This document shows, in pieces, positions 51,550 through 64,000 of a stretch of DNA of 64,000 nt. Below the pieces are notes generated by a model, which saw only the letters and a list, made by a program, of their open reading frames with translations, did not search any database and had not been told where the DNA came from. A program made the translations under genes and the position numbers. This DNA comes from Pelagibius marinus (lineage in GTDB: Bacteria; Pseudomonadota; Alphaproteobacteria; Kiloniellales; Kiloniellaceae). The stretch is from contig NZ_JACSDK010000014.1 in the NCBI RefSeq assembly GCF_014925385.1, positions 307,011 to 371,010 on the forward strand. The letters run 5' to 3'. Within the stretch, counting starts at the first letter, position 1. Each line of letters opens with the position of its first letter.

Positions 51550-52008
51550 TTAACTTCCCCTCCGAATAGGCGGCTCTCCCCGCCGGGCCGCACGCGGGCG
51601 GTCCCTACCTCGTTAAATGGATTCCGTTCGATTTCCGTCGCGCCGACTTCCCCCAGCAGATCGTCGACCGCCGCCTGAACCGCGGCGAGGGGGATGAGGT
51701 CCATGGCTTTGCCGCCCCGCTCCCCCTGCGCTTTCCTCGGCAATGTCTCCTGGAACGTCCTGGGCTCGCAGCACGCGAGCCTGGCCGACCAGCGGCGCCA
51801 GGCCACGCGCGTCGACCGGCTTGCCCTTACCGGCAAGCCAAGTGGTTCGCGCGTCCGGGAAGGCGTCGCGCAGGGCACGCAGGAAAGGCAGCTTGACCAG
51901 GTCGTCTCCGACCAGATCCAAGCCGCCGTGAACCAGCATAGACCCTGGGACCAACTCCGACCCGGGCGTTTCGACAGCTGGAGACATTACCCCCAATTCA
52001 CATTCCAA
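51546..52008 (-). pseudogene. Decayed family-9 glycosyltransferase (heptosyltransferase-like)
   Basis: Two leftward frames each hold a piece of the same fold. The frame opening near 52008 reads MLVHGGLDLVGDDLVKLPFL then RALRDAFPDARTTWLAGKGK, the usual N-terminal unit of GT9 enzymes. After about residue 65 the sense is lost, and a second frame ending at 51546 carries a C-terminal-like KAMDLIPLAAVQAAVDDLLG. The middle is missing and frames shift, so I call it an internally deleted pseudogene. 52009-52098 before it shows no gene. Confidence 0.45.
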
Positions 52009-52098
52009 ATTGCCGGCGTCCCGTCAGGCCCCTGAAGGCCTAAGCCTACACCTTCAATCGACTGAGCGGTGACTCTACAAGAGGCAAAATAGCGGCAT

Positions 52099-52123
52099 AA
52101 ATAACATTGTAAGAATGTTATTT
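52099..52123. promoter_or_regulatory. AT-rich perfect inverted repeat upstream of the sulfurtransferase gene
   Basis: AAATAACATT pairs exactly with AATGTTATTT across GTAAG. It lies about 62 bases upstream of the rhodanese ATG in an AT-rich stretch. Such dyads are typical operators of ArsR-family sulfide/persulfide sensors (BigR/SqrR), but no regulator gene is adjacent, so this is a suggestion. Confidence 0.5.
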
Positions 52124-52184
52124 TAAATCAATATACGGTGTGAAATAGTAATTTGAGTTGGTCCCCCAAGCTGAAAGGTCCGTC

Positions 52185-53183
52185 ATGCAGGCTCTCTTGC
52201 CGCTGAAATGGCGCCTGGTGACCCGGCGCCTGGCGGCGGCTGCCGCCCTGGGCGCGCTCGCCGTTACCACCGCCGCCGCCCTGGCGCCCCGTGCCGCCCT
52301 CGCCGAGGAAGCGGCCCCGCCGCTGGTCGACGTCGCCTGGCTGCGCGCCAATGCGGAGCGCGACGACCTGGTGGTGCTCGACATCCGCAACCAGCTCGAC
52401 GGCGGCTCGGAGCAGGTCTACCGGGCCGGACACGTTCCCGGCGCCGTCTACAGCGATTACCTGAAGGCCGGCTGGCGCACCGAGCGGGACGGCGTTCCCG
52501 CCCAGCTGCCGCGGCTGGAGACCCTGGAGGCCCTGATCGGCGAGCTGGGCATCAGCAACGACAGCCAGGTGGTCATCGTCTCGGCCGGCACCGACGCCCT
52601 GGATGCCGGCAGCGCCGCGCGCGTCTACTGGACCTTCAAGGTGGTGGGGCACGACAAGGTCTCGATCCTGGACGGCGGCTACCGCGCCTACACGGCCGAT
52701 CCCGCCAACCCGGTGGAAAGCGGCTGGGTCGAGCCGCTGCCCGACATCTTCTCCGCCGAACTGCGCCCGGAGCTGCTGGCCGACCGCGGCGACGTCGAGG
52801 CGGCCCGCGCGGCCGGCGGCCTGCTGGTCGACACCCGGCCGGCGGAGTACTACCTGGGCCGGAAGCGCCATACCTGGGCGAAGCGCGCGGGCACCATTCC
52901 CGGTGCGGTTTCGGTGCCTGACTCCAGCTTCATCGATGCCGGGGGCCACTTCGTGAAGGCCGGAGGGATCGGCGACCTGCTGCAGCGCGCCGGCCTGTCG
53001 CTCGGCGGCGAGGGCGCCGGCTCCATCATGTTCTGCAACACGGGCCACTGGGCGGCGCTCGGCTGGTTTGCCCAGAGCGAGATCCTGGGGCAGAAGAACG
53101 CCCGGGTCTACGACGGCTCCATGGTCGACTGGTCCGCCCAGGCGGCGCTGCCGGTGCAGCAGGGCGCGCTCGTCACCGAATAA
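52185..53183 (+). CDS. Exported sulfurtransferase (rhodanese-like, two domains)
   Basis: A 332-residue protein with a signal peptide (residues 1-40, cleaved after ALA). Two rhodanese domains follow (about 45-180 and 195-320): LVVLDIRNQLDGGSEQVYRA, GHVPGAVYSDYLKAG, then LLVDTRPAEYYLG and the active-site loop IMFCNTGHWAALGWF with the catalytic cysteine. It would carry sulfane sulfur in the periplasm. The start at 52185 has AAAGG upstream; an in-frame TTG at 52158 is less likely. It precedes the YeeE transporter gene by 139 bases. Confidence 0.9.
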   Translation: MQALLPLKWRLVTRRLAAAAALGALAVTTAAALAPRAALAEEAAPPLVDVAWLRANAERDDLVVLDIRNQLDGGSEQVYRAGHVPGAVYSDYLKAGWRTERDGVPAQLPRLETLEALIGELGISNDSQVVIVSAGTDALDAGSAARVYWTFKVVGHDKVSILDGGYRAYTADPANPVESGWVEPLPDIFSAELRPELLADRGDVEAARAAGGLLVDTRPAEYYLGRKRHTWAKRAGTIPGAVSVPDSSFIDAGGHFVKAGGIGDLLQRAGLSLGGEGAGSIMFCNTGHWAALGWFAQSEILGQKNARVYDGSMVDWSAQAALPVQQGALVTE

Positions 53184-53249
53184 CGCCCCGCCTGCCGGTC
53201 AAAGCCTTGCTGGTCAAAGTCTGCCGGTCAAAGCCGCTCACGATGCCGT

Positions 53250-53273
53250 GCGCCCGTCTCGACAGACGGGCGC
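53250..53273. other. Perfect 10-bp hairpin between sulfurtransferase and transporter
   Basis: GCGCCCGTCT and AGACGGGCGC flank a four-base CGAC loop. The preceding 40 bases carry GGTCAAAG three times in direct repeat. There is no T run, so readthrough into the transporter gene is plausible. Confidence 0.5.
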
Positions 53274-53322
53274 GGCGGCGCTCTTATCTTGCATCAGGAA
53301 GCACTCCAGAGAACGTCCAGCG

Positions 53323-54543
53323 ATGACATCGTCCGTTCCCCTCCCGCCCCAGCGCCCCGATTGGCGCGTGACGGTTCCGGCCCTGCTGCTGCTGGCCGGC
53401 GGCGCGCTCTACATCGCCGGCAGCGCCAGCCAGAAGATGGCCGGCCTCTACCTGCTGGGCGGGGCGCTGGGCCTGGTGCTCTATCACGCCGCCTTCGGCT
53501 TCGCCTCGGCCTGGCGCGTCTTCCTGGCCGAAGGGCGGGGCGAGGGGCTGCGCGCCCAGATGCTGATGCTGGGCGTGGCGACGCTGCTGTTCTTCCCCCT
53601 CATCGCCGAGGGCGCGGCCATCGGCGTCAACGTGGGCGGCGCCGTGGCGCCGCTGGGCGTCTCGGTCCTGGTCGGGGCGGCGCTCTTCGGCGTCGGCATG
53701 CAGCTCGCCGGCGGCTGCGCCTCGGGCACGCTCTACACCGTGGGCGGCGGCTCCACCGCCATGGTCTTCACCCTGATCTTCTTCATGGTCGGCTCGGTGA
53801 TCGGCGCGGCGCATCTGCCCTGGTGGCTCGACACGCCGAGCCTGGGCAGCATCTCGATCCTCAAGACCTGGGGCCTCTGGCCGGCGCTGGCGGCGCAGCT
53901 CGCCGTCTTTGCGGCCATCGCCGGGGCCACGCTGGTCATCGAGCGGCGGCGCAATCCCTACCCCGCGGCCACGGCGGCGCCCGGCGGATCGCCGGCCCGG
54001 CGGCTGGTCAGCGGGCCCTGGCCGCTGGTCTGGGGCGCGGTGGCGCTGGGGGTGCTCAACGCCGTCACCCTGGTCTCCGCCGGCCATCCCTGGACCATCA
54101 GCTTCGGCTACACCCTGTGGGGCGGCAAGCTGGCCGCGGCGGCGGGCGTCGACCTCTCCGCCTACGCCTTCTGGACCTGGCCCTTCCCCAGCCGCGCCCT
54201 GGCCGGCTCGGTCTTCGCCGACAGCACCTCGGTGATGAACTTCGGCGTGCTGGCCGGCGCTTTCCTGGCCGCGGGCCTGGCCGGGCGCTTTAATCCGGCC
54301 TGGCGCCTGCCCTGGCGCCGGGTGCTGGCGGCGGCCCTCGGCGGCCTGCTGATGGGCTACGGCGCGCGCCTGGCCTTCGGCTGCAATGTCGGCGCCTATT
54401 TCAGCGGCATCGCCTCCGGCAGCCTGCACGGCTGGCTGTGGTTCGCCGCGGCGCTGGGCGGCAGCTACCTCGGCACCTCCCTCCGGCCCCTTTTCGGGCT
54501 CTCCGGTGGCTTTTCCCGCCGCCCCACCGCGCAGGCCGCCTGA
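53323..54543 (+). CDS. YeeE/YedE family (TsuA-type) sulfur-compound transporter
   Basis: A 406-residue inner-membrane protein with about nine to ten helices in two pseudo-symmetric halves. Each half has the conserved cysteine motif: GMQLAGGCASGTLYT (Cys132) and RLAFGCNVGAYFSG (about Cys373). TsuA/YeeE imports thiosulfate through these cysteines. Pairing with the exported rhodanese upstream supports a sulfane-sulfur or thiosulfate route. Ligand specificity not proven. Confidence 0.9.
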   Translation: MTSSVPLPPQRPDWRVTVPALLLLAGGALYIAGSASQKMAGLYLLGGALGLVLYHAAFGFASAWRVFLAEGRGEGLRAQMLMLGVATLLFFPLIAEGAAIGVNVGGAVAPLGVSVLVGAALFGVGMQLAGGCASGTLYTVGGGSTAMVFTLIFFMVGSVIGAAHLPWWLDTPSLGSISILKTWGLWPALAAQLAVFAAIAGATLVIERRRNPYPAATAAPGGSPARRLVSGPWPLVWGAVALGVLNAVTLVSAGHPWTISFGYTLWGGKLAAAAGVDLSAYAFWTWPFPSRALAGSVFADSTSVMNFGVLAGAFLAAGLAGRFNPAWRLPWRRVLAAALGGLLMGYGARLAFGCNVGAYFSGIASGSLHGWLWFAAALGGSYLGTSLRPLFGLSGGFSRRPTAQAA

Positions 54544-54664
54544 ACAATTACAGGTGGCAAGACTTCTTGATTTTGTGTGAAAAACACGCATAAGTCGCAT
54601 TCAAGGGTTGCCATGAGTGGGTATAACCCCTTGAATCCCTTGAATCGTGGCCTATGTAGCACCT

Positions 54665-54820
54665 ATGAAGCAAGCTACCCTCACGAAGCCAGGCCCCGAA
54701 GAGCCGCAGGATTCCAAGGTCAGGCGCTGCCTCATGTGCCGCGACCGCTTTGAGAGCTCCTGGCCGGGCGAGCGCGTCTGCAAGCGCTGCAAGTCCACCG
54801 CCGCCTGGCGCGAGGGCTGA
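54665..54820 (+). CDS. Small zinc-ribbon protein, 51 aa
   Basis: A short ORF starting MKQATLTKPGPEEPQDSK with a CLMC knuckle and a CKRC knuckle (four cysteines, residues 23-42) that would bind one zinc, ending TAAWREG. The spacing and the WPGERVCKRCK segment recall small alphaproteobacterial zinc-ribbon proteins of unknown role. Codons are G/C-ending. No strong ribosome site is visible before the ATG at 54665. Confidence 0.65.
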   Translation: MKQATLTKPGPEEPQDSKVRRCLMCRDRFESSWPGERVCKRCKSTAAWREG

Positions 54821-54907
54821 GGCCGTTCGAGCGGCCCTTACTGCGGGTATCCGCATGACGTCACTCCGACAGCATCCTCTCAGGCAGAACCTACGTAGGT
54901 TGAGGTC

Positions 54908-55081
54908 ATGAACGACAAGGACCTCGTCAGCCCCTATCTGCAACGCCCGCTGCGCAGCCTGGAAGAGGTGCTGCGCGAGCGGCTGGTCAGGCTTGCCCGG
55001 CAGCGGGGCAGCTTGCCGGTCCCCGAGGCCGATAACAGCAACGATCCCGACGACGCCCTGCCGCCCGCAAAATCGGCCTGA
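54908..55081 (+). CDS. Small hypothetical protein, 57 aa
   Basis: ORF starting MNDKDLVSPYLQRPLRSLEE with GAGG seven bases upstream. The N-terminal half is a basic amphipathic helix (RSLEEVLRERLVRLARQRG), the rest acidic and disordered (DNSNDPDDALPP). Similar short proteins occur in related genomes as far as I remember, without known function. Confidence 0.6.
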   Translation: MNDKDLVSPYLQRPLRSLEEVLRERLVRLARQRGSLPVPEADNSNDPDDALPPAKSA

Positions 55082-55230
55082 CCCAGTCCCCAGGGCGCCG
55101 TTTTCGCCGCCGCGGGCAGGAATTCCCGGTTGTTTTCCCCCTAAATAGATCAACGTCCGGCTTCGCCTGCGGCTTGTGGCGTGCTAGCTTGGCATTCGGG
55201 TCGGTTGATCAGGGGACGGGGATTTTTCGT

Positions 55231-55881
55231 ATGCGCTTTGGCATTTTCGCTGCGGCCGCGGCATCGGTGATGTTCGCCTTTGCGGCAGAGGCGGCAACGG
55301 GCCCCAAAGGGGGACCCCCCGACAGCTTGTCCCGGATGCAGAAGTTCGAGTTCTACCTCGGCGAGCTCGCCGGCGTCCTCAATCTCTGCCGCATCACCGA
55401 TCTCGCCTACGAACTGAAGGAACTGTCGGACCTGACGCCCTATGGCCGCAAGGGCTGGCGCAGCACGCTGTCGTATGACTCCATCCGGGGCGGCCGCTGC
55501 ACCCGCTATGCCGAGCGCGCCCGGGAGGTCCTGGCCGACCGCGACAAGATCCTGGCTCATCTCACCGAGACCTACGACTGCCCGGGCGGGGACTGCGGGC
55601 CGGAAAGCGGTGACGCCTCCGCAACGGCCGTCTGCCGCTCCGAAGCGGAAGATCACTTGAGCTCCTTTTCCATCAGCGAAGATGATGTCGAGAGCATCAA
55701 AATGATCGGACGCAATGCTGGCGATGCCCAGGTCATCGTCAGTGGATCACCTGGTCACGAAGCCTGGGTGCGCTTGGCATTTTGCGAGGGTTGGATGGTG
55801 CTGCACCTCACGCCGCGCTGTTCTCTGCGCCAGGCTTTCACCCGTGGCGACTGCAAGGTCGAGGGCGTCGGCAGCTATTGA
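55231..55881 (+). CDS. Secreted eight-cysteine protein, paralogue 1
   Basis: A 216-residue protein with a signal peptide (MRFGIFAAAAASVMFAFAAE, cleaved near AEAAT) and exactly eight cysteines in the mature part: NLC, GGRC, YDCPGGDC, AVC, FC, PRC and GDC. All eight recur at equivalent places in the next gene, so four disulfides are likely. Landmarks include LTPYGRKGWRS and AFTRGDCKVEGVGSY. I do not recognise the family. Periplasmic or secreted. Confidence 0.8.
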   Translation: MRFGIFAAAAASVMFAFAAEAATGPKGGPPDSLSRMQKFEFYLGELAGVLNLCRITDLAYELKELSDLTPYGRKGWRSTLSYDSIRGGRCTRYAERAREVLADRDKILAHLTETYDCPGGDCGPESGDASATAVCRSEAEDHLSSFSISEDDVESIKMIGRNAGDAQVIVSGSPGHEAWVRLAFCEGWMVLHLTPRCSLRQAFTRGDCKVEGVGSY

Positions 55882-55968
55882 CGTGCCGGAGTGGAATTAA
55901 AAACCAAGTAGGCCACTTCGGTGGACCAGGCTGCGCAAAGCAGCTGTTGAGAAACTGGGAGACCAGGG

Positions 55969-56616
55969 ATGCGTAGCTGGATGATTGCCGTGGCGGCGGT
56001 GCTTTGGCTCTTGCCTTCGGGCGCGCAGGCGGCCGCGGGATCGGGCGCCCGGCCGTCGGAGAATTGGACCGAGATGCAGAAGCTCGAGTACTACATCGGG
56101 CAGATTGGGGCGGCGCTGAGCATCTGCGGCTATCACACCTTGTCCCACGACCTGACGGAACTGGCCAACCTTTCGCCCTATGGCCGCAAGGGGCTGGCCA
56201 GCATCCGGGTCTACGATTCCATCAAGGGGGGCCACTGCGGCAAGCTGGCCGCTGACGGCGAGGTCCTGATGGAGGACCGCGATCAGCTGCTGGCCTATCT
56301 GCAGGATGCCTACGACTGTCCCGCCGGCCAGTGCGCCCCGGAGGTCGGCGATACATCTCTCTCGGCGCCCTGCCGTGCGGAGGCGGATGAGCACTTGGCG
56401 GGCCTGCCGATCGACGGCCGGGATATAGTGAGTGTGATGATGCGCAACGGCAGCCGCCAGGGAAGCCAGATGAGTACTGGCAAAAAGGGATATGAAGCCT
56501 GGGTGCGCCTCAATTCCTGCCAGGGCTGGGTGATTATCGAGCTGTCGAAAGGCTGCTATCCCCGCCGGGCCTTCACCCGCGGCGAGTGCGAGATCGACGG
56601 CATCAGCAGCTACTGA
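55969..56616 (+). CDS. Secreted eight-cysteine protein, paralogue 2
   Basis: A 215-residue homologue of the preceding gene, starting MRSWMIAVAAVLWLLPSGAQ (signal peptide). It keeps SPYGRKG, YDSIKGGHC, YDCPAGQC, EAWVRL and RAFTRGECEIDGISSY with all eight cysteines. Overall similarity is moderate, so the duplication is old. The two genes lie head to tail 87 bases apart. Function unknown. Its stop is about 30 bases before the convergent tRNA. Confidence 0.82.
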   Translation: MRSWMIAVAAVLWLLPSGAQAAAGSGARPSENWTEMQKLEYYIGQIGAALSICGYHTLSHDLTELANLSPYGRKGLASIRVYDSIKGGHCGKLAADGEVLMEDRDQLLAYLQDAYDCPAGQCAPEVGDTSLSAPCRAEADEHLAGLPIDGRDIVSVMMRNGSRQGSQMSTGKKGYEAWVRLNSCQGWVIIELSKGCYPRRAFTRGECEIDGISSY

Positions 56617-56645
56617 ACACCTTGGGAATGCGGTTTTGCGGGGAA

Positions 56646-56720
56646 TGGTGGGCGATACTGGGATTGAACCAGTGACCTCTCCCGTGTGAAGGGAGCGCTC
56701 TCCCGCTGAGCTAATCGCCC
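56646..56720 (-). tRNA. tRNA-Val (CAC)
   Basis: Read leftward the 75 bases fold as a full cloverleaf: acceptor GGGCGAT/ATCGCCC, D arm GCTC...GAGC, anticodon stem CTCCC/GGGAG with loop TTCACAC (anticodon CAC, reading GTG valine), and T loop GGTTCAATCCC. The CCA end is encoded. No integrase or duplicated 3' end is seen next to it. Confidence 0.95.
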
Positions 56721-57216
56721 GTCGCCGGGCCCCGGAACGGGGCTGGGCAAAAGGGAAGCGTGATTTAGGACAGGCGCTCCGGCCTGTCAAGCACGGCCTC
56801 CCCCTCTTGCGGGGTCTTGAAAGGCCCGGAATCCCGGCTGTTTTGCACTGCCGAAGACTACCTCGTTACAAGCAAGAAACAATCGCCCACGGCCCATGTC
56901 GTGGCCCATGTCCCGGCCAATATTCCCTATGAAGTGGTAGGGCGACATCTTGCGGCGAGGAGGCCCGGAGACCATTGAAATGCCGTTGTGCTGCACCGGA
57001 GGTTGAATATTTTTCTTTTTGATATCAATGGTTTGAAGTGACTCTAAATGGTCACAGTCATTGTATGGCATTCAAGATAAGTTCGGAATAACCGGTACTA
57101 TCAGGCGTCTCGTCGATACCTGGAATGGTAATCGTTTATTAATTGAATCGGGATAATAACCGTTTGCCATTAGCCGAAATCCAAATGGGTTTATGGAGTT
57201 AGACGAGGAAATAGCA
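56721..57216. other. Intergenic region before the H1-like gene
   Basis: Nearly 500 bases with no convincing gene. The first half is G+C-rich and has a 10-base direct repeat (GGCCCATGTC twice); from about 57000 it becomes AT-rich and contains the likely promoter of the H1-like gene. A leftward 94-codon opening at 56787-57071 lacks codon bias and is not called. Confidence 0.45.
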
Positions 57217-59118
57217 ATGGCTATCGCTAGCAAACAGGCTTCCCGGAAGTCTGGTACTAAGGCGGTTCGCAAGACCGCAAAGAAGACCACCGCGCGCCGC
57301 AAGACTGCGGCTCGCAAGACGGCTGCCCGGAAGACCACGGCCCGGCGGACCACGGCTCGCAAGACCACGGCTCGCAAGACCACGGCTCGGAAGACGACGG
57401 CTCGTAAGAGCCCGGCTCGGAAGACGGCTGCCAAGAAGAAGACGACCGCTCGTAAGACGACTGCTCGTAAGACGACTGCTCGTAAGACGACGGCCCGTAA
57501 GACGACCGCGCGTAAGAGCCCGGCTCGGAAGACGGCCGCCCGTAAGACGACCGCTCGTAAGACGACCGCTCGTAAGACGACGGCTCGCAAGACGGCTGCC
57601 CGTAAGACGGTGGCCAAGAAGCGCGTCGTGAAGAAGACCGCGGCTCGCAAGAGCCCGGCGCGTAAGACGACGGCGCGTAAGACGACCGCCCGCAAGACGG
57701 CTGCTCGCAAGAGCCCGGCTCGCAAGACGGCCGCCAAGAAGCGCGTTGTTCGTAAGACGGCAGCTCGGAAGAGCCCGGCTCGCAAGACCACCGCGCGTAA
57801 GACGACCGCTCGCAAGACGGCCGCCAAGAAGCGCGTTGTGAAGCGTAAGACGGCTGCTCGGAAGAGCCCGGCGCGTAAGACTACGGCCCGCAAGACGGCT
57901 ACCCGTCGCACGGCCGCCAAGAAGCGTGTTGTGAAACGCAAGACGGCTGCTCGCAAGAGCCCGGCTCGCAAAACCACGGCGCGCAAGACGGCGACCCGTC
58001 GCACGGCTGCCAAGAAGCGTGTCGTGAAGCGTAAGACGGCTGCTCGCAAGAGCCCGGCTCGCAAGACCACCGCGCGTAAGACGACCGCTCGCAAGACGGC
58101 CGCCAAGAAGCGCGTTGTGAAGCGTAAGACGGCGGCTCGCAAGAGCCCGGCCCGTAAGACCACGGCGCGTAAGACGGCTACCCGTCGCACGGCCGCCAAG
58201 AAGCGTGTTGTGAAGCGCAAGACGGCTGCTCGCAAGAGCCCGGCTCGCAAAACCACGGCGCGCAAGACGGCGACCCGTCGCACGGCTGCCAAGAAGCGTG
58301 TCGTGAAGCGTAAGACGGCTGCTCGCAAGAGCCCGGCTCGCAAGACCACCGCGCGTAAGACGACCGCTCGCAAGACGGCCGCCAAGAAGCGCGTTGTGAA
58401 GCGTAAGACGGCGGCTCGCAAGAGCCCGGCCCGTAAGACCACGGCGCGTAAGACGGCTACCCGTCGCACGGCCGCCAAGAAGCGTGTTGTGAAACGCAAG
58501 ACGGCTGCTCGCAAGAGCCCGGCTCGCAAGACCACGGCCCGTAAGACGGCGACCCGTCGCACGGCTGGCAAGAAGCGCGTTGTGAAGCGTAAGACGGCTG
58601 CGCGTAAGACGACCGCTCGCAAGACCACGGCTCGTAAGAGCCCGGCTCGCAAGACGGCCGCCAAGAAGCGCGTGACCCGTAAGACGGCTGCGCGTAAGAC
58701 GACCGCCCGCAAGACGGCTGCTCGCAAGAGCCCGGCTCGCAAGACGGCCGCCAAGAAGCGCGTGACCCGTAAGACGACGGCGCGTAAGACGACCGCCCGC
58801 AAGACGGCTGCTCGCAAGAGCCCGGCTCGCAAGACGGCCGCCAAGAAGCGCGTTGTCAAGCGTAAGACTGCGGCTCGCAAGAGCCCGGCCCGCAAGACCA
58901 CGGCCCGCAAGACGGCTGCTCGCAAGAGTGCCGCTCGCAAGACGACTGCTCGTCGGTCGATCGCCCGCAAGACGCCTTCGCGTAAGGCCATTGCGACGCG
59001 TCGCCTGATTGCTTCTCGCCTTGCATCTTCGCGTCCGTCGACGGCGAGCCGGCTTGCTGCGGTCTCCCGTGCGACCCGCCAGGGTGGTTCCTACCGGAAC
59101 GGCTTGGCGCATCGCTAA
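57217..59118 (+). CDS. H1-like Lys/Arg/Ala/Thr-rich repeat DNA-binding protein
   Basis: A 633-residue extremely basic protein made almost wholly of KTAARKSPARK, KTTARK and AAKKRVVKR modules, resembling the C-terminal domain of histone H1 and bacterial H1-like proteins (HctB/BpH1/AlgP style). There are no aromatic residues in the repeats. A non-repetitive tail (SIARKTPSRKAIATRRLIAS to YRNGLAHR) closes it. I choose the ATG at 57217 (GAGGAAA eight bases upstream) over 57193. It should coat DNA non-specifically; role in nucleoid compaction is inferred. A strong terminator follows. Confidence 0.9.
   Translation: MAIASKQASRKSGTKAVRKTAKKTTARRKTAARKTAARKTTARRTTARKTTARKTTARKTTARKSPARKTAAKKKTTARKTTARKTTARKTTARKTTARKSPARKTAARKTTARKTTARKTTARKTAARKTVAKKRVVKKTAARKSPARKTTARKTTARKTAARKSPARKTAAKKRVVRKTAARKSPARKTTARKTTARKTAAKKRVVKRKTAARKSPARKTTARKTATRRTAAKKRVVKRKTAARKSPARKTTARKTATRRTAAKKRVVKRKTAARKSPARKTTARKTTARKTAAKKRVVKRKTAARKSPARKTTARKTATRRTAAKKRVVKRKTAARKSPARKTTARKTATRRTAAKKRVVKRKTAARKSPARKTTARKTTARKTAAKKRVVKRKTAARKSPARKTTARKTATRRTAAKKRVVKRKTAARKSPARKTTARKTATRRTAGKKRVVKRKTAARKTTARKTTARKSPARKTAAKKRVTRKTAARKTTARKTAARKSPARKTAAKKRVTRKTTARKTTARKTAARKSPARKTAAKKRVVKRKTAARKSPARKTTARKTAARKSAARKTTARRSIARKTPSRKAIATRRLIASRLASSRPSTASRLAAVSRATRQGGSYRNGLAHR
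57754..58590 (+). repeat. Nested 93-bp units grouped as three 279-bp super-repeats
   Basis: Nine 93-base units (31 residues each) run in exact register as 57754-58032, 58033-58311 and 58312-58590. Each 279-base block has the order b-a-a, where b carries KTTARKTAAKK and a carries KTATRRTAAKK. Blocks 2 and 3 differ at about seven positions (about 97% identity), with the first 170 bases identical. Confidence 0.9.
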
Positions 59119-59161
59119 GAACTGACGACGCGATTTCGGCTTTACTGGTGCAAAGCAGTAG

Positions 59162-59196
59162 GAGGCGGGTACCCAGCGGTACCCGCCTCTTTCTCT
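59162..59196 (+). terminator. Terminator of the H1-like gene
   Basis: GAGGCGGGTACC and GGTACCCGCCTC form a perfect 12-base-pair stem with a CAGC loop, followed by TTTCTCTTT. It lies about 44 bases after the stop at 59118. Confidence 0.92.
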
Positions 59197-59438
59197 TTCC
59201 GGTTTCGGTCAGGGCGGAGCCTGGTTCCGCCTTTTCGCATTTCCCGCGCCTGCGGCATCAAGAGAGCTTGTTGTCACTTCCGGCGGCAGGCTGTAATAAC
59301 CAGCAACAATTGTTGATTTGATGGGAAAATTTGCGCTGTGGCAAAGTCCGCACCGTTCGGGGCGGCGAGTCGTTTATCGTTTTACTGCACAGTATGAGTT
59401 CCCAGGTCCCTTTTACGTCGAGATATTCTGACCAGACT
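59197..59438 (+). promoter_or_regulatory. glmU upstream region with a palindrome
   Basis: No gene seen. CAACAATTGTTG at 59304-59315 is a perfect 12-base palindrome, 124 bases before the glmU ATG, and an AT-rich stretch follows. A promoter for glmU-glmS presumably lies here. Confidence 0.4.
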
Positions 59439-60866
59439 ATGTCCGATCGTAAGCTTGCCGTCGTAGTTCTGGCTGCCGGGAAAGGCAGCCGCATGAAATC
59501 CGATCTGCCCAAGGTCCTGCACCCGGTCGCCGGCCAGCCGATGCTGTGGCATGTGCTGACCGCCGTGGGTCCCTTGGCGCCGGCCGAGACGGTGGTGGTG
59601 ATCGCGCCCGGGATGGACGACGTGGCCGCCGCCGCAGCGCCCTGCCGCTGCGCCGTGCAGGCGCAGCCGCTGGGCACCGGCCATGCCGTCGCCGCGGCCC
59701 GGGAAACCCTGAAACCCCTGGTCGACAGGGGGGCCGACCTCTTGGTGCTGTTCGGCGACTGCCCGCTGCTGACCAGCGAGACGCTGCAGCGCCTGGCCCA
59801 GGCGCGCCGCGCGGCGCAGGCGCCGGACTTCGTCGGTCTGGCCTTTCGCCCGGCCGACCCGGCGGCCTATGGCCGGGTGATCCTCGACGAAGCTAAGGTG
59901 GGCGAGGAGGGGCGCATCGAGAAGATCGTCGAATTCGCCGACGCCGACACGGCGCAGCGCCAGATCGATCTCTGCAACGCCGGCATCGTCCTGGGTGACG
60001 CCGGCCGCCTCTTCGACCTGATCGAGCGCCTCGGCAGCCACAACGCCCAGGGTGAATACTACCTGACCGACATCTTCGGCCTGGCCCATGCGGAGGGCCG
60101 GCCGGCCGGCGTGGTCGAGTGTCCGGCCGAGGAGGTCCTCGGTGTCAATTCGCGCGCCGACCTGGCACTGGTGGAGCAGGTCATGCAGGGCCGCCTGCGG
60201 CGGCGCGCCATGGCCGAGGGCGCCACCCTGGTCGACCCGGAGACCGTCTGGCTCTCCGCCGACACCCGCTTGGGGCGCGACGTCACGGTGCAGCCCTCGG
60301 TCTTCTTCGGTCCCGGCGTCACCGTCGGCGACCGGGTGGAGATCCGCAGCTTCTGCCACCTGGAAGGGGCCGAGGTCGGCGACGAGGTGGTGCTGGGCCC
60401 CTTCGCGCGGCTGCGCCCGGGGGCCAGGCTGGGCCGCGCCGCCCACGTCGGCAACTTCGTCGAGATCAAGAACGCCGAGTTGGGCGAGGGCGCCAAGGCC
60501 AACCACCTGACCTACCTTGGCGACGCCACGGTGGGGGCGGCGGCCAATGTCGGCGCCGGGACCATCACCTGCAACTATGATGGCTTCCTGAAGCACCGCA
60601 CGACCATTGGCGCCAAGGCCTTCATCGGCTCCAATACGGCGCTGGTCGCGCCGGTGACCGTGGGTGAGGGCGCGCTGGTCGCCGCCGGCAGCACCATCAC
60701 CGAGGACGTGCCCGCCGACGCCCTGGCGGTGGAGCGCAGCGAGCAGCGCAACCGCGAAGGCACGGCCGCGCGCTTCCGCGCCGAACGCCAGGCGGCCAAG
60801 GACCAGGCGGCCAAGGAGGCCGAGGCAGGGAAGTCCGGGAAGAGTTCCGGCCGCAAGTCGTCGTAA
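59439..60866 (+). CDS. glmU: Bifunctional GlcNAc-1-P uridyltransferase/GlcN-1-P acetyltransferase
   Basis: A 475-residue enzyme making UDP-GlcNAc for peptidoglycan and LPS. N-terminal pyrophosphorylase motif LAAGKGSRMKSDLPKVLH, then QPLGTGHAV and FGDCPLL; C-terminal left-handed beta helix from about residue 250 (hexapeptides such as VGDRVEIRSF, IGSNTALVAP) with the acetyltransferase signature VGAGTITCNYDG. The tail is Lys/Ala/Ser-rich. glmS follows after 32 bases, so precursor supply is organised as an operon. Confidence 0.96.
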   Translation: MSDRKLAVVVLAAGKGSRMKSDLPKVLHPVAGQPMLWHVLTAVGPLAPAETVVVIAPGMDDVAAAAAPCRCAVQAQPLGTGHAVAAARETLKPLVDRGADLLVLFGDCPLLTSETLQRLAQARRAAQAPDFVGLAFRPADPAAYGRVILDEAKVGEEGRIEKIVEFADADTAQRQIDLCNAGIVLGDAGRLFDLIERLGSHNAQGEYYLTDIFGLAHAEGRPAGVVECPAEEVLGVNSRADLALVEQVMQGRLRRRAMAEGATLVDPETVWLSADTRLGRDVTVQPSVFFGPGVTVGDRVEIRSFCHLEGAEVGDEVVLGPFARLRPGARLGRAAHVGNFVEIKNAELGEGAKANHLTYLGDATVGAAANVGAGTITCNYDGFLKHRTTIGAKAFIGSNTALVAPVTVGEGALVAAGSTITEDVPADALAVERSEQRNREGTAARFRAERQAAKDQAAKEAEAGKSGKSSGRKSS

Positions 60867-60898
60867 CAGAGTTCAGGCAAGCAAAGGATCAAGGCCCT

Positions 60899-62722
<1,824 letters not shown>

Positions 62723-63061
62723 GCCCTCCGGAAGGGCGTTAACCATTTTCGCAGGCGATCTACTCACTTCCGGTTAGTTGCGAGTTTGCGATTCTTTTTT
62801 GCGCTGCGGCAGGATCCAGGCCCGGATTCCGGGGAATTCGGGCCTGCATTCAAACCCTTAAATGGTGAACGGACTTGAGCGCTGGTCGGGAGGAAATTCT
62901 CCAATAGGTAGCGCACGGTAAAGAGTCGTTCATCTTCCTTTATTAGAACTATGGGACAGATTTCAGGCCTCGCCGGGACAGGTATGCCCGGCTATTGGGC
63001 CGTCCGGATGTTTTCGGTTTTTGCCGGAGGAAGGGCGGCTTGGGATCCAGGAGACGGAACC
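62723..63061. other. Intergenic region with a hairpin
   Basis: About 340 bases with no gene seen. At 62818-62845 AGGCCCG-GATTCC-GG-GGAATT-CGGGCCT forms a near-perfect stem, possibly a transcript end for glmS or an operator. The right part, up to the AGGAGACGG ribosome site, is the likely promoter of the FecR-type gene. Confidence 0.5.
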
Positions 63062-64000
63062 ATGGCATTCACGACCAAGTTTTTTGCGTCGGATCTTCGC
63101 CGCCAGGTCATCATTTCGGCCGGCGTCATTCTTATAGCCGTTGCGGCGGCGATGATGATGCGTCCCGAGGTGGCTTCGTCCAGCGCGGAGTGGTCGGTAC
63201 TGGCCACCAACGGGAAGGCGGAATGGCGCGCCACTGCCGGAAACGGCGATTGGGTGGACTTGACCCTCGACAGCCGCGTGCCGGACGGTGCGGAACTGCG
63301 TACCGGTGGAGCCGGCTCGGCCGTGGTCGCCAAGGGCCTGGACCGGATCGAACTGCGGCCCAACACCTCACTGGTGGTGGCGGCGCGGCAATCCACCTTC
63401 GGCAAGATGGAGATCGACCAGACCTCGGGCAGCGCGACCTATACCGTCGAGAAGCGCCCGGCGGGCACCTTCTCGGTGCATACACCCTACGTGGTGGCTG
63501 TTGTGAAGGGCACCAAGTTCGATGTCGACATCGAGTCCGGGGATACCAGCGTCTCCGTGAACGAAGGCCGGGTCGGCGTTTCCGATACGCGCGGCGGCGG
63601 ATCCGTCGACGTGACGCCCGGCCAGACGGCGCGGGCCTCCAGCAGCGCGCCCGGCCTTGACGTGGGGGCGACACCCGCAGGCAAGTCTTCTGCGAAGCGC
63701 TCGGCCAGTTCCAGCGCCCCGGGCAAGTCTGCCGACGCGGCGGGCAAGGGCAACGGCGGCGGCAACGGCGGCGGCAACGGCGGCGGCAATGGCGGCGGTA
63801 ACGGCGGCGGCAACGGCGGCGGCAACGGCGGCGGCAATGGCGGCGGTAACGGCGGCGGCAATGGCGGCGGTAACGGCGGCGGCAATGGCGGCGGTAACGG
63901 CGGCGGTAACGGCGGCGGTAACGGCGGCGGCAACGGCGGCGGCAATGGCGGCGGCAACGGCGGCGGTAACGGCGGCGGGAATGGCAAGGGCAAGGACAAG
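63062..64000 (+). CDS. FecR domain protein with (NGGG)n tract (3' end beyond window)
   Basis: An open frame of 313 codons running off the window. One membrane helix near residues 14-32 (VIISAGVILIAVAAAMMM) anchors it; the FecR-like beta domain covers about residues 48-190, with VVKGTKFDVDIESGDTSVSV and NEGRVGVSDT characteristic. After a Ser/Lys/Ala linker comes a tract of nineteen NGGG repeats, then NGKGKDK at the edge. AGGAGACGG precedes the ATG. Alphaproteobacterial proteins of this layout often continue into further domains; none visible here. Confidence 0.85.
   Translation, partial: MAFTTKFFASDLRRQVIISAGVILIAVAAAMMMRPEVASSSAEWSVLATNGKAEWRATAGNGDWVDLTLDSRVPDGAELRTGGAGSAVVAKGLDRIELRPNTSLVVAARQSTFGKMEIDQTSGSATYTVEKRPAGTFSVHTPYVVAVVKGTKFDVDIESGDTSVSVNEGRVGVSDTRGGGSVDVTPGQTARASSSAPGLDVGATPAGKSSAKRSASSSAPGKSADAAGKGNGGGNGGGNGGGNGGGNGGGNGGGNGGGNGGGNGGGNGGGNGGGNGGGNGGGNGGGNGGGNGGGNGGGNGGGNGGGNGKGKDK
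63752..63979 (+). repeat. Nineteen 12-bp tandem repeats coding NGGG
   Basis: Units AAYGGCGGCGGN run without interruption, always in frame, with only synonymous variation (AAC/AAT, GGC/GGT/GGG). The glycine-asparagine tract follows the FecR domain and is likely to vary in length between strains. Confidence 0.92.

Follow-up and report, generated by a model that had tools for sequence, protein, structure and literature searches.

Nested tandem repeats in a long H1-like gene of Pelagibius marinus and its relatives

The locus considered here raises the question of what a gene built almost wholly of repeats within repeats encodes, how those repeats arose, and how its assembled length is to be read. 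It lies in the window, by which we mean the whole 64,000-nucleotide stretch of Pelagibius marinus DNA that was analysed (NCBI taxonomy places Pelagibius in the Alphaproteobacteria, Rhodospirillales). Judging from its sequence and from analogy with known proteins, the product is likely to be a disordered, DNA-condensing nucleoid protein of the kind of Hc2 and BpH1, and its nested repeats would have arisen by tandem duplications inside the reading frame; we put the probability of this joint reading at about 0.78.

The gene and its nested repeats

The gene runs on the plus strand from an ATG at 57217 to a stop ending at 59118 and encodes, as assembled, 633 residues that family models recognize as H1-like. 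The product contains 136 lysines, 129 arginines, 145 alanines and 126 threonines (K + R 42%), has neither aspartate nor glutamate, and is of low complexity nearly throughout, being repeat apart from its short ends. These ends are a conserved N-terminal start of 28 residues, MAIASKQASRKSGTKAVRKT... (57217–57300, plus strand), and a conserved C-terminal tail of 51 residues ending in SYRNGLAHR (58963–59115, plus strand). The ATG at 57217 and an RBS-like GAGGAA, which we identified by inspection at 57205–57210 (plus strand), are invariant in all 8 genomes of the genus, namely the window genome (G000) and seven other Pelagibius genomes (G001 to G007); an alternative ATG at 57193 is shared by G004 alone, and G001, G002, G003, G005, G006 and G007 have no ATG there. 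Just ahead lies a leader element, ATTAGCCGAAATCCANNTGGGTTT (57169–57192, plus strand), which is exact in 8/8 genus genomes, one per genome, and, with as many as 2 mismatches allowed, was not found in the remaining 108 of the 116 genomes searched. A conserved RNA structure in this leader is unsupported, the fold having a z of -1.55 in G000 (10 of 200 shuffles were as good) and -0.66 in G005. In 52000–64000, tRNA alone among Rfam families reaches its gathering score; a tRNA-Val (CAC) lies upstream of the gene on the minus strand (56646–56720). Behind the stop, a predicted intrinsic-terminator-like hairpin of 14 pairs, followed by a T-rich stretch, occupies 59160–59191 on the plus strand (folding of 59150–59200: -30.9 kcal/mol, z -6.55).

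Between the two ends, three nested levels can be distinguished: modules of 5–6 residues (15–18 bp), units of 30–31 residues (93 bp) and blocks of 276–279 bp. Over the gene, Tandem Repeats Finder detects periods of 15, 30, 60, 93, 120 and 279 bp, with period 93 at 57660–58934 (score 1407) and period 279 at 57727–58934 (score 1702). The 5′ part of the array (57301–57750, plus strand) consists mostly of single pentamers and holds the first KKRVV modules. Cutting after each KKRV[VT] then delimits nine consecutive units at 57751–58584, arranged as b a a b a a b a a, with one SPAR and one KKRVV in each. In eight of the nine, 93 bp encode 31 residues as one hexamer plus five pentamers; one codon fewer makes the first unit 90 bp long (30 residues). 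On the plus strand they form block 1 (57751–58026: b1 57751–57840, a1 57841–57933, a2 57934–58026), block 2 (58027–58305: b2 58027–58119, a3 58120–58212, a4 58213–58305) and block 3 (58306–58584: b3 58306–58398, a5 58399–58491, a6 58492–58584). The preliminary description of this DNA had recognized the 5–6-residue modules, the 93-bp units and three b-a-a blocks of 279 bp at about 97% identity. Reading of the frame, Tandem Repeats Finder and block comparison bear out this architecture; the block length is refined to 276–279 bp and the identity to 94.9–97.5% (blocks 1/2 96.7%, 1/3 94.9%, 2/3 97.5%). Silent and replacement differences number 9 and 0 between blocks 1 and 2, 13 and 1 between 1 and 3, and 6 and 1 between 2 and 3; unit a differs from unit b by 8–12 silent and 4–6 replacement changes.

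The b-a-a order thus holds as an order of units, but the last duplication has another phase. Of all pairs of 279-bp segments, 57892–58170 and 58171–58449 (both plus strand) are the most alike, with 1 silent difference in 279, and they are equally similar within a range of starts; an exact repeat of 278 bp links 57937–58214 to 58216–58493. From these relations we infer at least three steps, one more than the at least two proposed before: modules would have been amplified into units, units into a first pair of 279-bp blocks, and a late 279-bp duplication would have followed in the other phase, an order that exchange between copies could blur. The late copy carries 1 silent change over about 76 silent sites (a site number taken from the block comparisons). 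Since this is below the silent divergence between G000 and G004, both at the gene's ends (0.043–0.067) and in four neighbouring genes (0.19–0.30), the last step is recent, as had been suggested. The older block step, with a pS of 0.17, cannot clearly be placed after the split from G004. Two 30-residue units farther 3′ (58678–58857, plus strand) are common with G004, the nearest species, at 98.9 and 95.6% identity; being near-identical to units of that genome, they mark the 3′ part of the array as older and shared. Successive tandem duplications inside the reading frame are the likely origin of the nested 15–18-bp, 93-bp and 279-bp repeats, and slippage or unequal recombination would add and remove units.

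Codon usage may carry a further trace of the array. GCT makes up 0.49 of Ala and GTT 0.38 of Val codons in the gene, vs 0.05 and 0.10 in a set of 14 translation genes from this genome (one ribosomal-protein region, frames chosen by length and named by inspection); in CGT (0.40 vs 0.23) and CCG (0.95 vs 0.77), the gene leans the same way as the translation genes. The GCT share is 0.19–0.49 in pieces from the 8 genus species and 0.05 in both the G000 background and the ribosomal-protein region, an excess that amplification of a founder module may explain. A reading of the codon bias as a sign of high expression was rejected: it lends no support because the choice of Ala and Val codons is unlike that of ribosomal proteins.

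The locus in relatives and the turnover of its units

The gene, with its conserved leader, N-terminal start and C-terminal tail, is present in 8/8 genus genomes. The tail occurs in 9 of 61 genomes of the order, these eight and one of a sister genus (G008), and some match to the repeat protein was found in 38 of the 58 genomes searched, the window genome included. In all nine tail-bearing genomes, the gene or its C-terminal piece lies just upstream of glmU (59439–60866; NF010933, 631 bits, cut-off 505) and glmS (60899–62722; TIGR01135, 799 bits, cut-off 418), plus-strand neighbours conserved by synteny; in G001, G002, G003, G007 and G008, assembly breaks leave the C-terminal piece beside them. 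No K-rich frame was found at the other 21 of the 30 glmU loci examined (55 genomes have glmU; about 1.5 kb was covered where the contig allows), and this negative is soft, since the scans required K above 12% and missed the real C-terminal piece of G007 (14 K of 118). Elsewhere in the same family, the genus g4 has K-rich proteins of 445 and 422 residues (L047:7444-8778 and L052:8200-9465), made largely of KPVARKTAAK-type decamers and having a shared end of their own, VSVKPFRYVWSNGAVSR; they lie on contigs other than that of glmU. Two sister genomes, G013 and G015, have arrays at contig ends.

Several features of the flanks are shared as well. A block ahead of glmU, TGTAATAANCNGCAACANNTGTTGATTTG (59292–59320), is common to the 8 genus genomes and weaker in G008; possibly it is part of the glmU promoter region. 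At E 0.1, neither Pfam nor NCBIfam gives a match for two genes upstream of the H1-like gene (55174–55881 and 55969–56616), which match the same stretches in relatives; their place is mostly gapped in G004, and downstream of glmS there are related stretches in G001, G002, G003 and G007 and, more weakly, in G004 and G005. Identity between G000 and G004 is 94–100% per 100 bases at 57058–57357 and 58963–59162, above most of the surrounding sequence. Silent divergence between G006 and G001 is 0–0.027 at the gene ends and 0.146–0.177 in glmU and glmS; between G000 and G005, the contrast is slight (0.23–0.33 at the gene ends vs 0.355–0.397). The low divergence of the gene ends may stem from local recombination between closely related species.

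The array was amplified in nested steps, and its length changes between species. Uninterrupted genes encode 633 residues in G000, 366 in G004 and 248 in G005; that of G006 encodes 320 and includes 39 N. The preliminary description had expected length to vary between strains and to alter DNA compaction; the variation seen here is between species of the genus. In G001, G002, G003 and G007, the assembly breaks within the array and leaves one half of the gene at each of two contig ends; the halves sum to 302, 487, 464 (72 bases overlap) and 219 residues, respectively. All 12 genus pieces read are free of stops.

Unit types differ between most species as well. The comparison covered 48 units, each bounded by two KKR[VI][VT] modules, in pieces from all 8 genomes of the genus; G008, the outermost parts of each piece and any part cut at a contig end were left out, the C-terminal piece of G007 gave no unit, and one unit of G006 contains the N gap. 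In G000, nine units are 31 residues long, three are 30 and one is 40. G004 and G001 have three units each, all of 30 residues, and G006 has three of that length besides the gapped one. Units of 25 and of 30 residues occur together in G005 (two and one, respectively) and in G002 (five each), whereas all units of G003 (eleven) and G007 (one) have 25 residues. The nearest unit is in the same species for 37/48 (2000 label shuffles gave a mean of 8.15 and a maximum of 20). The nine a/b units are 0.935–1.00 identical within G000 and only 0.71–0.84 identical to units of other species, and KRKTAA occurs in G000 alone among the 8 genus genomes. By their sequences, four arrays appear to be lineage-specific, those of G000, G002, G003 and G004. 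Such replacement is not universal, since the nearest unit is in another species for the remaining 11 (every unit of G005 and of G001, 3 each, the single one of G007, 2 of G006, one of them gapped, and 2 of G000) and the close pairs G001/G006 and G002/G007 have a common unit type.

This turnover bears on whether length matters at all. Array length may be nearly neutral, any length of K/R/T/A pentamers serving and expansions drifting, which is compatible with a DNA-packing role; we regard this as quite possible, somewhat short of even odds. It is favoured by the fact that length differs among all species with a spanned gene and unit type between most, and by Bordetella bpH1 knockouts, which grow normally (PMC2848022, excerpted text). 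However, the excess of silent differences between copies indicates that the protein sequence is kept, no stop interrupts the genus pieces, and both ends and the locus are kept. In the DNA-condensing reading that we prefer, selection would keep the module type and both ends and would tolerate, or may use, changes of length. A stronger version, which we offer tentatively and think unlikely as a whole, would cast the gene as a length rheostat of the nucleoid, with ends, leader and place frozen and the arrays rewritten per lineage in units of 25–31 residues of its own; length would be reset by 75–93-bp units and 279-bp blocks, the true protein would be longer than 633 residues, and the repeat number would set packing. 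If this were true, the protein would be among the largest H1-like proteins known. As assembled, the genus offers a natural length series of 248, 366 and 633 residues for one orthologous H1-like protein at one locus, which would allow a direct test of repeat number against DNA packing.

Proposed function, copy number and reading frame

The window protein exceeds the cut-offs of the curated models Pfam HC2 (PF07382, 276 bits, cut-off 40) and NCBIfam NF038052 (256 bits, cut-off 135) and NF038053 (158.6 bits, cut-off 80), in support of the H1-like composition assigned to it at the outset. The G004 protein passes all three models, and the G005 protein passes PF07382 only (NF038052 116, cut-off 135; NF038053 74.8, cut-off 80). 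HC2 models are also above cut-off on 3/3 proteins tested from other genera, and a whole-protein search, which scored the 7986 candidates sharing most words, gave 395 matches, most of the 120 listed carrying an unrelated Pfam domain besides HC2; therefore, the match reflects composition and is not proof of common descent with Hc2. The tail has no Pfam or NCBIfam family at E 0.01 and the N-terminal start no Pfam family at E 1; in the protein database, the tail has no match at E 0.001 (123 and 89 candidates), though it is present in genome DNA. By its composition, the protein would bind DNA along its whole length, and the evenly spaced positive charge, with SPAR and KKRVV in each unit, would neutralise DNA phosphates.

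The main partner could instead be another polyanion, such as polyphosphate granules, which the protein would tether to or space on the nucleoid. AlgP of Pseudomonas aeruginosa provides the precedent, being an H1-like repeat protein on polyP granules whose repeat domain is needed for normal granule spacing (PMC9239181, excerpted text). Yet we consider this distinctly unlikely here: KPAA is absent from the Pelagibius protein, the repeat modules begin about 18 residues from the protein start, so that the roughly 17 residues before them leave no space for an AlgP- or PhaF-like N-terminal domain, and the genes conserved beside its own are glmU and glmS.

The number of 279-bp blocks may also be questioned, since the assembly bears a short-read signature. 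Of the 70 contig ends, 51 are unmasked. These show 5 overlaps from end to end, exactly 91 bases long in 4 cases and 61 in one, and 8 termini in common, exactly 91 bases long in 7 cases and 305 in one; 15 of the 51 take part in exact 91-base cases. The assembly looks like a de Bruijn assembly with k near 91, i.e., of short reads. The window's contig ends near 63978, where 61 bases are common with another contig end, and a 12-bp tandem array of about 19 copies (63749–63978) lies a few bases before this end. Four of the 8 genus assemblies break inside the H1-like gene and one more has an N run there, so genes of this kind tend to break or be under-counted; the exact 278-bp repeat in the array likewise speaks for an artefact. 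Against this, removing one copy of 57937–58215 loses as many k-mers as k (91 at k 91; k tested 91–279), by which a shorter array was rejected as a better reading of the assembly. Adding one such copy makes no new k-mer at the six k tested from 91 to 279 and 21 at k 300, and a copy added in phase 57892–58170 would create 10 new 91-mers, so not every added copy would be hidden. Provided that the assembled k-mers are genuine, three blocks are therefore the minimum explaining the assembly; additional exact copies of one phase would leave no trace, and the true block number could exceed three. G004, a genome assembled in 5 contigs, has a long array too (366 residues). An artefactual block number is thus very unlikely, and the smaller repeat number that the preliminary description had proposed to check for is disfavoured, the number perhaps being higher.

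The weakest alternative, that a reverse-strand frame is the real gene, was rejected as extremely improbable: one antisense frame is stop-free in 4/4 orthologues spanning the gene (window gene included; one with the N gap), but it is open because TTA, CTA and TCA codons are absent from the plus frame, whose third positions hold 23 of 28 differences (644-base segment, 279 shift), a silent pattern that marks it as the coding frame, and the RBS-like sequence, conserved start and terminator all lie on the plus strand.

Comparison with known systems

The tail of eukaryotic linker histone H1 resembles the DNA-condensing protein proposed here in being K/A/T/S/P-rich and in having S-P-x-K/R motifs; a globular winged-helix linker-histone domain was not found, Pfam at E 0.1 giving HC2 and a sub-cut-off extensin match only. 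Among bacterial proteins, the BpH1/Hc2-like proteins of Burkholderia and Bordetella, which are Betaproteobacteria, come from another class and are much shorter than the Pelagibius protein. They share with it the pentamer arrays (NF038053) and the existence of size variants, which span 149–231 residues in Burkholderia and 182–206 in B. pertussis (PMC2848022, excerpted text). AlgP and PhaF, the KPAA-repeat H1-like proteins of Pseudomonas, also have a long basic low-complexity region of H1-like composition; they differ in that an N-terminal domain is present there (PMC9239181, excerpted text), whereas the Pelagibius protein is repeat but for its short ends and has no KPAA, let alone KPAA after such a domain.

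The closest likeness is to Hc2 (hctB, Chlamydiaceae; PF07382/NF038052). As the excerpted text of Klint et al. 2010 describes (PMC2848022), Hc2 condenses DNA and represses transcription and translation; its elements of 36 residues consist of six pentamers plus one hexamer, and in C. trachomatis 2–4 of them give proteins of 165–237 residues that vary by duplication and deletion of elements. The Pelagibius proteins likewise have K/R pentamers and a hexamer organized in larger elements (25–31 residues here), conserved flanks, and a length that changes, between species, by whole elements (PMC2848022 for Hc2, as excerpted). They differ from Hc2 in the 633 residues, the nine b/a units and the third, 279-bp level of the window gene, and in a tail and N-terminal start without family match. 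As the preliminary description held, 633 residues is long for a bacterial H1-like protein, published Hc2-like proteins having 149–237 residues and the spanned relatives in the genus 248–366. In the open-licence literature, we found no paper on Pelagibius with histone and none with a title about this protein. Two-level arrays of pentamers and units with length variation are already published for Hc2, Burkholderia and Bordetella (PMC2848022, as excerpted), and the principle is the same here; the Pelagibius case differs in size, in its third repeat level, in taxon, and in ends that match no family model.
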